Of a stretch of 58,623 bases of DNA, positions 8,235 to 58,180 are shown piece by piece. The notes below the pieces were generated by a model. The model was not told the origin of the DNA, searched no databases, and saw only the letters and a program-made list of their open reading frames with translations. The translations under genes were made by a program, and so were the position numbers. How positions within the stretch are numbered: the stretch's first letter is position 1; every line of letters begins with the position of its first letter. The stretch lies in contig JAJZIX010000005.1 in the NCBI GenBank assembly GCA_021810345.1, positions 1 through 58,623 of the forward strand, in the 5' to 3' direction. The DNA comes from Nanobdellota archaeon (lineage in GTDB: Archaea; Nanobdellota; Nanobdellia; Parvarchaeales; Parvarchaeaceae).

Positions 8235-8306
8235 GCATAAATATCAAGAGCGCCATATAACTTTTACAAGGGCCCATAGTCTAGCGGACAGGATCGATGG
8301 CTTCGA

Positions 8307-8324
8307 ATGCCACGGATGGAAGTA
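8307..8324 (+). other. 18-nt tRNA intron at canonical 37/38, BHB-like
   Basis: Outer helix GATGG/CCATC, central 4-bp helix CTTC/GAAG, 3-nt bulges GAA and TAA; intron ATGCCACGGATGGAAGTA. Confidence 0.85.
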
Positions 8325-8339
8325 ACCATCTGACCTGGG

Positions 8340-8354
8340 TTAATAATACAGGAA
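8340..8354 (+). other. 15-nt tRNA intron in the T-arm (53/54), BHB-like
   Basis: Outer TGA/TCA, central helix CCTG/CAGG, bulges GGT and AAT; removal of TTAATAATACAGGAA restores CTGGG-TTCAAAT-CCCAG. Confidence 0.85.
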
Positions 8355-8430
8355 TTCAAATCCCAGTGGGCCCTTGTTTTTGTTGGACTAAAGTTTAAAT
8401 ACCACTTACAATCTATATCCATTCTGTACG

Positions 8431-9762: not shown

Positions 9763-11051
9763 TTACTTCCCAGCGAGTTGAGTTTGTTCTGAATCTCAAC
9801 TATCTCGTCCTTTGTTGCGAACGATGGGAGGGCAGCCTTCAGCTTGTTGATTTCATTCTCAAAATCATTTTCTCTTTTTGAGAGATCGGAAATGTTCTTG
9901 TTCAGTGCCGAGAATTTGTTTAGTGAAGAGGTTATCTCGTTGAACATTATCTCCACTTTGGAAGCCTGCACATTCATCTTATTCTGCGTCTCTTCCATGG
10001 CCTTGTATAAGTCCTGCACACTGTCAAAAAGTTTTGCTGCGTTCTTTACGGTTCCAAGCTCGGATATCTTTGAGGATACCGCGCTCATCTGCTTGCTTAG
10101 TGAACTCTGGCTCTCGGTTGTTCTGTCAAGCTCCTTGCTCAGGGCGTCAATTCTATCTTGGGATGCCTTGACTGCAGATTTTATCTCCTCTGGATTGTAA
10201 TTTGACAGCGTGTTGATTGATGTTCTTGCAAGGTTTATGAACTCAAGAATATGGCTCTGGGTGTCGGATACAGCTTTCTGTATGTTCTGGAATTCCTTTG
10301 CCATAGACTCCAGCTTAAGGCTCAGCCCATTTGTCTCTACAACTAGTGAATTTGTAGTGTTCGCGGTTCTCTCAAACTTCTTGTCCAAATCCGCCCGGGC
10401 TTTCTTCAGGTCGATTATCTCATCGTTGATTGAATTGACAGCCGGGAGTCCAGAATAAACCGTTTCCGCGAGCTTGTTCAGTTTTTCAGCAAGTTCATTG
10501 TTTGCGCTGCTAAGGCTGGACACGCTGTCCTTTATGCCGTCTGAAAGAACTTTGTAGTTGTCGGACAGAAGCCTGTTACTTTCCTCGATTCTCTTTATTG
10601 TCTCCGAATCGTTGTGTGACTTTAGGTTTATGCTGTCTGCTATATTGTTGAAATTAGTTATCGAGTTGTTTAGGTTGTCAGAAAGCTTGTTCATCCCCTC
10701 GGTGAGCCCACTTAACGTGCTGCTTAACTCGTTGATCCTTTTGCTCGTTTCTGAGTGTTCTTCGTTTATCTTGTCTATGGCAGAGTTAAAGCTTGATATT
10801 GTAGTATTAAGGTTATCAGTAACTTTATTTAGGCCGTCGTTCAGAAACAGGATTCTCTGCTGGGTCTGGTTTAAGCTCTGGATTAGGTCGTTATCCTTTG
10901 TTTTTTGCACCTGTATCACAGTGTCATTTAGAACGCCGATCCTGTCGTATAAATCAGAGATTATCTTCCCCATCGAGCTATTGAATCTTTCTACCTCTTC
11001 CTTATAAGACTCATATACTTGAGAGAACCCACCACTGATAACATCGCTCAT
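9759..11051 (-). CDS. Long coiled-coil protein (430 aa)
   Basis: Heptad-like composition over nearly the whole length (repeated LNxxITxFNNxAD/LSDNLNNSI-type segments), no TM segment. Confidence 0.75.
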   Translation of the reverse strand: MSDVISGGFSQVYESYKEEVERFNSSMGKIISDLYDRIGVLNDTVIQVQKTKDNDLIQSLNQTQQRILFLNDGLNKVTDNLNTTISSFNSAIDKINEEHSETSKRINELSSTLSGLTEGMNKLSDNLNNSITNFNNIADSINLKSHNDSETIKRIEESNRLLSDNYKVLSDGIKDSVSSLSSANNELAEKLNKLAETVYSGLPAVNSINDEIIDLKKARADLDKKFERTANTTNSLVVETNGLSLKLESMAKEFQNIQKAVSDTQSHILEFINLARTSINTLSNYNPEEIKSAVKASQDRIDALSKELDRTTESQSSLSKQMSAVSSKISELGTVKNAAKLFDSVQDLYKAMEETQNKMNVQASKVEIMFNEITSSLNKFSALNKNISDLSKRENDFENEINKLKAALPSFATKDEIVEIQNKLNSLGSK

Positions 11052-28127: not shown

Positions 28128-28195
28128 ATTTCTCATTCTAAATTTAGTAGAATAAAAGCCTTTCCTTTTAATTTTACAGAAGACAAAAACAACAC

Positions 28196-28269
28196 TGGGG
28201 TGGCTGGGATTTGAACCCAGGATTTCTAGCACCCGAAACTAGAGTCTTACCAAGCTAGACCACCGCCCC
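28196..28269 (-). tRNA. tRNA-Pro(CGG)
   Basis: Minus strand GGGGCGG...CCACCCC(A), anticodon arm CTAGT-TTCGGGT-GCTAG, T-arm CTGGG-TTCAAAT-CCCAG; one acceptor mismatch (C5-A68). Confidence 0.85.
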
Positions 28270-28304
28270 ATTCTATATTGGTCTTAAGTTTATTGTATTT
28301 ATGT

Positions 28305-29312
28305 TTAATTTGCTCTGTGGTAGCTAGGATAAACCCCCGGTTTCATCACAACGCTGTCATTTTTGATTGCAATTCCCCCTTTGGCATGCATTATTTCAGT
28401 TGGCGTCATTACAGCGTTGCCAAGTGCTATCAGCTCTCCTTTTAATGTTGAGATAAACACTCTATCATTTTTCTCAAAGCTGTTCATCTTGACTATCCCA
28501 GGCACTGCAACTGGCGAGCCGTGGCATACAGTATCGACCGCCTCGTCGGATACGAAAACCTTTGGCATAAAAGAAAGAGCCTCCTCTATGCTCCTCAAGG
28601 TTTTCTTAAGCAGCCTGCTGTCGTTGTTTTTATAAAAGTAGACTGCATCATCAATGTCCTGTAGAGTTACCAGTCCTTCTGTCTCAGAGAGCGTCGAGAC
28701 CTTCGTTCTCCTAAGCTCCATCATGTGTGCTCCTATCCCCAGTTTTTCTCCCATATCGCTTATCAGCTTTCTTATATACGTGCCGGACTCTACGCCGACT
28801 TTGAACAGCACGTCATTGCCTTCAATCTCTAGGATATCCATATAATAAACTTCTCTTTCTCTGTACTGCCTTTTTACGTTTGATCTTACAGGGGGAAGTT
28901 GTGTTATCTTGCCAGTAAATTCGGAGAGCGTCTTAGCAAGCTCATTCCGGTCGAAAGTTTTATGCAGATGCATCAGTGCTACATACTCTTTTCCGCCGAC
29001 TAGCAGCTCAGCTAATGCCTTCGTGGCGTTGTTAACCGCCAATGGCAAAAGACCAGTTACGTTGGGATTTCTTCAGTCTTCTAAAGTCCCTGAGTATCCG
29101 ATCTTATTTGCACCTAAAGGCGCCAATATCTTTTTGGCTGTTGCTGCCGCCGTTTTTGACCTTATACCGCTTGGCTTATCGAGCAGGATGAAACCGAAAT
29201 CCATCCTTTGCTCTATGCTTCTGTCAGCAGGGTAAGCCCCGTATGAAGCATCCGTGCTTTCGTCTCTTATGGTATAAAGCTCAAATTTTCTGCCATCCAA
29301 CGGTAGTCCCAT
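28305..29312 (-). CDS. cbf5: Cbf5/TruB-family RNA pseudouridine synthase, gene interrupted by a 12-nt predicted BHB intron
   Basis: Two same-frame ORFs (29312-29073 and 29048-28305) separated by one in-frame TGA; together they read FGFILLDKPSGIRS...GYSGTL-[ED*RN]-PNVTGLLPLAVNNATKAL plus the C-terminal PUA domain. Removal of 29069-29080 gives GTLDPNVTG. Confidence 0.92.
29069..29080 (-). other. Predicted 12-nt bulge-helix-bulge mRNA intron in cbf5
   Basis: Minus strand GGGA-CTTT-AGA-agact-GAAG-AAA-TCCC: outer helix GGGA/TCCC, central helix CTTT/GAAG, two 3-nt bulges; cleavage AG|A and AA|A removes AAGACTGAAGAA, which contains the TGA. Confidence 0.85.
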
Positions 29313-33932: not shown

Positions 33933-35504
33933 TTATTCTTTCTTGCGGCTGAATAATTTGAACAGCTTGTCAGCTTTTGCCAGCTTGACTATGAACCCTA
34001 TCTCATGGTTGTTTATTGTTTTTGTTATATACAGCATCCCCGTGTATACTAGTAATCCCAATATCAAGACTGCGGGCAGAAAGTGCAGTTGAACCCTCGG
34101 TAGTACGAAGTAAAGGAAAGCGGACATGACCCCCGCAGCTAGCAGTCCCTTAAGAAAATCAATATATGGGAGCTTTATCTTTATGAATTTTGACAGGAAA
34201 AACAGGTTTGATCCAAGCATCGACAAGCTCACTACCGCGTAGACAACCGCTGCGCCTACTGAGAGCATATATGGTATAACCAGGACGGAAAGAGAGAGTC
34301 CTAGTACGGCCCCTATTATTGTTGAGTACATGTAATACTTTTGCCTTCCAGTCGCGCTCAGGATTGAAGGCACTGGGCCAAAAAGCCCCGCTATAAGCAC
34401 TGGAATGAGCATTATTATGAATGGGATCTCTGCACCAGCGAACGCAGTTTTGTAAAGGTATGCGACCAGGTCCTTTGCCGAAAAGATTGATCCGAAGACC
34501 AGCGGGAAAGTTATGAGCGCGGAGTACTTAAGCAGCTTTTTCTGCAGGGTGTAGAAGACATCGAACTCCTTGTGCTCAAGGTGTTTTGTGATGGACGAGA
34601 AAAAGGCCGAGCCGATCGCAGCAGCGGGTACACCTATAAGCCCCGCCATGATAAGCCCTACTCTGTAAAAGCTAACAAAGGTCAGGTTTGGCGCAACTGC
34701 TCCAAGTATAAACACTATCAAGGGGCCGTAAAACAGCGAGACCAGCGAGCTGGCATAAGAGAAGTTTCTGTATTTTCTTATATGCTTTATCTCCTCCACG
34801 TTTGGTTTTTCTCTGCTTGGTTCTTTTTTGACTAGCCTGTACACGAAGAAGCCGCCCACGCTCGCAACAACAAGGTAGATCACATCATAAAAGGTTATGG
34901 CCCCAAGGAGCCCGAAACCAAGATAAACGACCGCAAGCTGCGCCAGTCTAAGCATATCAAAAAGAACGCCGGTTACGAAGCTGTACTTCATCTTTTGGTA
35001 TCCTATGTATACTTGGTTCTCAAAGCTTTCGCTCAAATTGAATACCACTATTCCTATAGCAAGTATCCGCAGCAGAGGCGCTATCTCAGGAGTATGGTAT
35101 ATAACGCTCAGGGGAGCCGCTGCGGCATACAATCCAACAGAAGCTACCAATGAGCTTATGATCAGCAATATTAGGTTGTGCTCAACTATCCATCTGAGCG
35201 ATTTTCTCTCGTTCTTAGCCCTATACCGAGCTATACCATAAAGCAACGAGCTGTTGAGGCCAAATGCCGACAACCCTGCAGCCAGGCTCCAATACATCGT
35301 TAGTATAGAGTAGACACCATAGTTCTGTGCGCCGAGCAACCTAACAAAAAGGATGCTAAGCAAGAATGCAACGATGAATTTTGAGCCAGAGCGCATAAAC
35401 CCAAAAAGGCTGTTGGATGCGATTGTAGTCTGCTCCTCCTCTATCTGATTGGCCCCTTGGTTGGTGCCTTCCTCTATATTTGTTTGGTCTACGCCGGCTT
35501 CCAT
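33933..35504 (-). CDS. Oligosaccharide flippase (Wzx/MOP superfamily)
   Basis: SLFGFMRSGSKFIVAFLLSILFVRLLGAQNYGVYSI...; about 12-14 TM. Confidence 0.85.
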   Translation of the reverse strand: MEAGVDQTNIEEGTNQGANQIEEEQTTIASNSLFGFMRSGSKFIVAFLLSILFVRLLGAQNYGVYSILTMYWSLAAGLSAFGLNSSLLYGIARYRAKNERKSLRWIVEHNLILLIISSLVASVGLYAAAAPLSVIYHTPEIAPLLRILAIGIVVFNLSESFENQVYIGYQKMKYSFVTGVLFDMLRLAQLAVVYLGFGLLGAITFYDVIYLVVASVGGFFVYRLVKKEPSREKPNVEEIKHIRKYRNFSYASSLVSLFYGPLIVFILGAVAPNLTFVSFYRVGLIMAGLIGVPAAAIGSAFFSSITKHLEHKEFDVFYTLQKKLLKYSALITFPLVFGSIFSAKDLVAYLYKTAFAGAEIPFIIMLIPVLIAGLFGPVPSILSATGRQKYYMYSTIIGAVLGLSLSVLVIPYMLSVGAAVVYAVVSLSMLGSNLFFLSKFIKIKLPYIDFLKGLLAAGVMSAFLYFVLPRVQLHFLPAVLILGLLVYTGMLYITKTINNHEIGFIVKLAKADKLFKLFSRKKE

Positions 35505-56392: not shown

Positions 56393-56507
56393 GCAGGGGT
56401 AGCGAAGTTTGGTCCAACGTGCAGGACTTAAGGTCTTTTGTTTGATCGACAAAGATATGATATCCTGCGGCTTAGCGCCCTCGTGGGTTCAAATCCCACC
56501 CCCTGCA
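56393..56507 (+). tRNA. tRNA-Leu(UAA) with intron
   Basis: GCAGGGG/CCCCTGC acceptor, CAGGA-CTTAAG[intron]A-TCCTG, long variable arm, T-arm GTGGG-TTCAAAT-CCCAC. Confidence 0.92.
56433..56461 (+). other. 29-nt tRNA-Leu(UAA) intron at 37/38
   Basis: Inner hairpin TCTTT...AAAGA; bulges AGG/ATA; central helix CTTA/TATG has one mismatch (relaxed BHB). Confidence 0.75.
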
Positions 56508-58077: not shown

Positions 58078-58180
58078 GCAGGGGTAGCGAAGCCTGGCCA
58101 AACGTGGCAGACTCAAGAAATCATTTTTTGGGTTATCTGCCCTCTTTGTGAGTTCAAGGGTTCAAATCCCTTCCCCTGCA
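58078..58180 (+). tRNA. tRNA-Leu(CAA) with intron
   Basis: GCAGGGG/CCCCTGC acceptor, GGCAGA-CTCAAG[intron]A-TCTGCC, long variable arm, T-arm AAGGG-TTCAAAT-CCCTT. Confidence 0.93.
58118..58134 (+). other. 17-nt tRNA-Leu(CAA) intron at 37/38
   Basis: BHB: outer GCAGA/TCTGC, central CTCA/TGGG, bulges AGA and TTA; intron AAATCATTTTTTGGGTT. Confidence 0.85.

Follow-up and report, generated by a model that had tools for sequence, protein, structure and literature searches.

The cbf5 gene on the minus strand of a 58,623-nt contig of a Nanobdellota archaeon (JAJZIX010000005.1, GenBank assembly GCA_021810345.1; we call this whole stretch the window) is interrupted by 12 nt that very probably constitute a pre-mRNA intron of the bulge-helix-bulge (BHB) class in a minimal bulge-helix-loop (BHL) form, removed to rebuild the catalytic Asp codon. 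An initial annotation of the window had proposed a 12-nt BHB-type mRNA intron in this gene, and the proposal is supported by the position of the insert, its phylogenetic conservation, compensatory changes, a synonymous constraint that depends on the intron, and the exclusion of rival explanations.

The gene spans 29312-28305, with its ATG at 29312. The upstream frame ends ...GYSGTLED at an in-frame TGA (29073-29075, minus strand), after which the same frame continues as RNPNVTGLLP... down to 28305. Exon 1 (232 nt, 29081-29312, minus strand) is open from the ATG to the first letter of the catalytic Asp codon and matches TIGR00425 CBF5 over residues 11-78. Exon 2 (764 nt, 28305-29068, minus strand) extends from the second letter of that codon to the stop, with matches to NF003280 and TIGR00425 and to TruB_N, TruB_C_2 and PUA. 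The intron itself, AAGACTGAAGAA (29069-29080, minus strand), contains the TGA and splits the Asp codon after its first letter (GTL-G/AT-P). Deletion of 29080-29069 joins TTAG to ATCCC and gives TTA GAT CCC (L D P), restoring GTLDPNVTG, and deletion of 29079-29068 instead gives an identical mRNA. The in-frame insert with its TGA at 29080-29069 had been predicted and is borne out exactly by the sequence, as is the recovery of the GTLDPNVTG catalytic loop upon its removal, which leaves a Cbf5 of 331 aa.

The spliced 331-residue protein is a Cbf5 equivalog, scoring 351.9 bits against NF003280 (cut-off 242) vs. 340.3 for a read-through product with X at the stop. It contains the DKCLD, TruB_N, TruB_C_2 and PUA domains and aligns colinearly with Pyrococcus Cbf5 over nearly its whole length, GTLDP falling on GTLDP. 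A PF01509 search found a single TruB/Cbf5 gene in the genome, a draft metagenome-assembled genome (MAG) of 22 contigs that is about 90% complete. Among intron-bearing family members dN/dS is about 0.08 (10 pairs with dS under 2); both exons are intact and, judged by these substitution rates, under purifying selection. Since no other TruB/Cbf5 gene was found and the unspliced frame stops, the predicted splicing is, as a logical consequence, almost certainly needed for making Cbf5.

Structure and covariation at the junction

Read on the minus strand, the junction (29090-29064) runs GGGA, CTTT, AG/A, AGACT, GAAG, AA/A, TCCC, with slashes at the predicted cuts. The outer helix pairs GGGA (29087-29090, the Gly codon and first letter of the Thr codon) with TCCC (29064-29067, the last letter of the Asp codon and the Pro codon), and the central helix pairs exonic CTTT (29083-29086) with intronic GAAG (29071-29074). 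The exonic part of the 5′ bulge is AG (29081-29082), with the 5′ cut predicted after 29081. The 3′ bulge is AAA (29068-29070), with the 3′ cut predicted between 29069 and 29068. Between the strands of the central helix lies the loop AGACT (29075-29079), in which a single-pair inner helix with a triloop is possible. It had been claimed that the junction forms a BHB with two 3-nt bulges. The 4-bp central helix and the 3-nt 3′ bulge stand, but the canonical 5′ bulge does not: in the window's intron it merges into the loop, and in place of an inner helix there is only a conserved A-U that closes the triloop; the motif is therefore a BHL. Across 12-nt introns the loop always has the form A-NNN-T, and nine different loops of that form occur. 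As a relaxed BHB the window's intron has all four central pairs, a 3-nt 3′ bulge, and covariation.

The geometry alone is not distinctive. With G-U allowed, the bare 27-nt arrangement turns up often by chance, at 43 places on the two strands of the 58.6-kb window; being this common, the motif by itself proves little, and the case for an intron is carried by where the insert lies, how it is conserved and how it covaries. All four central pairs form, in the same register, in 68 intron loci (47 after duplicate genomes are taken out) and in nine more found later by a covariance model. The position of the predicted 5′ cut and the 3-nt 3′ bulge are likewise common to all 77 parsed loci. In an alignment of 20 introns, 97% of cells pair (97.5% in the outer helix and 100% in the central helix, where two pairs show double compensatory changes), and 30 cells are changed on both sides, compared with a shuffled mean of 9.1. 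The covariation score of this alignment is 0.441, vs. 0.231 when shuffled and at most 0.195 for slid partners. Synonymous changes occur on the exon strand of the central helix and are matched in the intron: the exon/intron combinations include CTTT/GAAG, CCTT/GAGG, CTTT/AAAG, CCTT/AAGG and CTCT/AGAG, as well as CTCT/GGAG, CATT/AATG, CGTT/AACG, CACT/AGTG and CCCT/GGGG.

Both strands of the outer helix belong to the exons (GGN A with Y CCN), and here the codons themselves are constrained. GGG, GAT and CCC or CCT occur jointly in 23 of 23 intron-bearing genes of the window's family and in none of its nine intronless genes (p = 3.6e-8). The same combination is found in 13 of 24 intron-bearing and 0 of 51 intronless genes from other families (p = 2e-8); both p values are indicative only, as related genomes are not independent. 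In the remainder of these genes no Gly codon is rarer than GGG and no Pro codon rarer than CCC. By this comparison, the synonymous codons flanking the intron are constrained only where the intron is present.

Distribution and in-frame stop codons

Among named records the nearest are MAGs of Candidatus Parvarchaeota or Nanoarchaeota, contributed by many projects; Candidatus Acidifodinimicrobium mancum is a member of the sister genus. The organism is placed in the Parvarchaeota/Acidifodinimicrobium lineage of Nanoarchaeota, not in the Micrarchaeum branch (ARMAN-1/2), the source of the endonuclease that the initial annotation had in view. The 12-nt insert is found at the exact site in 19 genomes of the genus, the window's included, and is precisely absent in eight congeners. 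The comparison of Cbf5 orthologues from related genomes that had been suggested as a check of the intron thus gives 18 other congeners with the insert and eight without. Of three sister-genus genomes searched, one has no insert, and the other two have a frameshifting insert of 16 nt, TGTGATTCACAAAGAA, made a complete BHB by its GTG/CAC inner helix. A homology search with the window's C-terminal exon alone gave no relatives, whereas an alignment query did.

A covariance model built from the 20 introns identified 35 intron-bearing genomes in seven families among 383 genomes of the class; the 39-nt matches it gave there come from genes with no intron. Searching named genomes brought in Woesearchaeota (18 nt), Bathyarchaeota (19-34 nt), and Desulfurococcales, Sulfolobales and other Thermoprotei (19-38 nt). 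Beyond the window's lineage, inserts of 12-38 nt occupy the identical position. Outside Crenarchaeota sensu stricto, cbf5 BHB introns of 18-34 nt lie at the same codon in the Woesearchaeota loci L131, L135 and L137 and the Bathyarchaeota loci L143, L155, L158-L161 and L167. The close Woesearchaeota relatives L132-L134 are without a cbf5 intron, which points to recent gain or loss in that group. On the Cbf5 tree at least 12 changes of intron state are needed, six of them forced by starred branches, and the nine intronless genes of the window's family sit in two places. The intron may be ancestral with many losses or may have spread. Among covariance-model matches elsewhere there was no second mRNA intron; the genome as a whole was not screened for further split genes. 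Matches at 34965-35003 and 10568-10621 in the window were near chance and were rejected as introns, as was one at G030:C15, which lies within an uninterrupted seryl-tRNA-synthetase-like open reading frame.

Stop codons in the exon-1 frame are enriched within these introns. In 28 introns picked as near-independent lineages, 25 have an exon-1-frame stop, compared with six and eight in the other two frames (Fisher p = 2e-8). For the first 22 introns the count was 19, against 8.2 expected from loop shuffling, and all nine introns found later by the covariance model have such a stop. The enrichment includes introns that already shift the frame. Shared intron ancestry may account for part of the excess. 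We infer that the excess reflects selection to end translation of unspliced mRNA, an idea related to the published suggestion of negative regulation by the cbf5 intron (PMC2738675). If the stop is such a splicing gate, only spliced mRNA would make the enzyme; translation of unspliced mRNA would terminate at the intron, and no dead Cbf5 that could poison H/ACA particles would arise. A broader scenario, which we hold tentatively and rate at less than an even chance, is that the cbf5 intron is old and widely shared in archaea instead of being peculiar to crenarchaea, with its stop kept as a splicing gate, and that in Parvarchaeota it shrank to 12 nt and an endonuclease of the single-subunit type removes it from an mRNA BHL, against the current specificity rule.

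Proposed splicing mechanism and alternative explanations

In the model we propose, the transcript would fold so that the exonic GGGA/UCCC helix and the helix between CUUU (exon) and GAAG (intron) present both junctions to the tRNA-splicing endonuclease, which would cleave each side 3′ of the second bulge nucleotide. RtcB, the ligase that the genome encodes, would then join the exons to give the catalytic Asp codon and the 331-aa Cbf5, while unspliced mRNA would yield only a 79-aa fragment ending within the intron. Cleavage, ligation and the identity of the acting enzyme are parts of this model that we infer from sequence.

The excising enzyme is most likely the cell's tRNA-splicing endonuclease. 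The only tRNA-intron endonuclease found in the genome, on contig C6, is 173 aa long and has a single N-terminal domain and a single catalytic one; it is of the alpha type and closest to those of N. equitans (3iey_A) and M. jannaschii (1a79). The premise of the initial annotation, that a broad-specificity epsilon-2 endonuclease would act here, fails for this lineage: the window's genome encodes the single 173-aa alpha-type form, and the family-f1 genomes searched have only short open frames. Each of the family-f1 genomes searched had one strong PF01974 locus, no second convincing one and no long epsilon-2 form, and PF02778 agrees where searched. In the congener G017 the endonuclease appears as two partial PF01974 matches, C24:10488-10601 and C5:28981-29124 (positions 1-36 and 38-85); the halves probably reflect contig breaks, the alternative being a truly split gene.

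Two points weigh against an intron excised in this way. The window's own lowest-energy fold pairs A29082 and G29081 with U29075 and C29076, zipping the 5′ bulge into the stem, and published rules have alpha-type endonucleases prefer the full canonical motif, whereas the window's intron is a BHL. Fold energy is weak evidence alone (z of -0.85 for 49 nt and -2.9 for 31 nt). The tension with alpha-type specificity is eased because a tRNA gene in the same window (8270-8374) has a T-loop insert that, on our reading, is also without an inner helix, which suggests that the genome's enzyme accepts such substrates. A related possibility, for which the incompleteness of the draft genome leaves room, is that the intron is real and the cutter is a partner subunit that escaped detection, or some other nuclease, rather than the lone alpha-type endonuclease. 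We consider this rather unlikely, given one strong PF01974 locus per searched family-f1 genome (over two contigs in G017) with no convincing second one, and given the same T-loop insert as read here.

Explanations that do without an intron fare far worse. Recoding or read-through of the TGA (by a suppressor tRNA, selenocysteine or an alternative code), giving a protein with four extra residues, would accord with an in-frame insert of 12 nt and with most congeners having only TGA. It is very improbable: the congener G022 has TAA TGA, the sister-genus inserts of 16 nt shift the frame, other families have TAA or TAG in inserts of 13-29 nt, and 19 of the window's 44 open frames of 200 codons or more end in TGA. 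Nor is the residue ahead of the stop constant (it is D, Y, H, A, N, Q or a stop), so no Asp would be conserved there. It is similarly hard to credit that the halves are translated separately, by restart after the stop, and then assemble; TTG and other possible downstream starts exist, but neither half would hold the catalytic Asp in its conserved place, and the RNA covariation and codon constraint are left unexplained. A sequencing or assembly error, or a local indel, might be suspected in a single draft MAG; its probability is negligible, with the insert present in 18 further congeners from many independent projects and assemblies, and with base changes that either stay within the loop or are offset in the helix. 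That cbf5 is a pseudogene decayed in this lineage, as a stop at the active site might suggest, is equally remote, this being the sole TruB/Cbf5 gene found, with intact exons and the low dN/dS given above, and the identical lesion persisting across the genus with a covarying structure. A group I or II self-splicing intron was rejected, as its catalytic core needs hundreds of nucleotides.

Relation to known introns and tRNA genes

Introns in cbf5 were described in Desulfurococcales and Sulfolobales, some of them confirmed by cDNA (Yokobori et al., 2009; PMC2738675), and the statement that such BHB introns are known from crenarchaeotes is correct. The window's intron shares with them the gene, the site in the Asp codon, the BHB register (a 4-bp central helix, with the cut after the second bulge nucleotide) and the restored GTLDP. 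It differs in length, with 12 nt vs. the published 16-44 bp (PMC2738675), so that the extreme shortness claimed for it holds, although length is a correlate and not part of the definition. Moreover, it is a BHL with at most one inner pair and belongs to a Nanoarchaeota lineage, and its host has a single alpha-type endonuclease gene, with no hetero-oligomeric enzyme found. The origin of cbf5 introns has been tied to the hetero-oligomeric endonuclease, as a proposed correlate rather than a definition (PMC2738675).

Archaeal tRNA introns with relaxed BHB motifs (BHL, hBH) are similar in motif and size range (11-175 nt; PMC2738675), and presumably the same enzyme acts on them. Unlike these, the cbf5 substrate is an mRNA, its outer helix is written in a protein-coding motif, and the intron carries a stop codon. 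Putative 12-bp introns in protein-coding genes of an archaeal virus (Peng et al., as relayed in PMC2738675) have the same length; by that account their splicing was not demonstrated and they may be translated, whereas the insert in cbf5 disrupts an essential codon and brings in a stop. The epsilon-2 endonuclease of ARMAN-2 (PMC12397907, PDB 4fz2) has a homologous catalytic domain and handles both BHB and BHL; it is a three-unit chain of 395 aa with an ARMAN-specific loop, while the enzyme of the window's genome is a single unit of 173 aa.

The intron is thus of a known kind, an archaeal cbf5 mRNA intron; what is new here is the shortest cbf5 intron, occurrence well beyond Thermoproteota, and the enrichment of in-frame stops. 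A literature search, mostly of open-access sources and therefore not establishing priority, returned no report of cbf5 introns in DPANN, Parvarchaeota, Bathyarchaeota or Woesearchaeota. The finding extends archaeal mRNA introns beyond Thermoproteota in the same gene and codon, near the likely minimum length of such introns, and challenges the published link of mRNA introns with hetero-oligomeric endonucleases. Why this gene and this codon carry the intron, and whether it is regulatory, become directly testable questions in view of two features: in-frame stops in excess, and a GTLDP coding sequence that naturally suits the outer helix (GGN A ... Y CCN). On the practical side, gene callers that work from stop to stop will split cbf5 in these genomes.

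Several tRNA genes of the window also appear to be interrupted. RF00005 recovered a gene at 8270-8374 (plus strand), with a probable TCG anticodon (Arg), that ARAGORN did not report. Two introns seem to interrupt it: one lies within the anticodon loop, and the other, of 15 nt within the T loop (TTAATAATACAGGAA), has a CCTG/CAGG helix, an AAT bulge and no real inner helix. The genes at 56393-56507 and 58078-58180 (both plus strand) were likewise detected by RF00005 and not by ARAGORN; they look intron-containing and are probably Leu by anticodon. Directly downstream of cbf5, before a threonyl-tRNA synthetase-like gene, lies tRNA-Pro(CGG) (28195-28270, minus strand).
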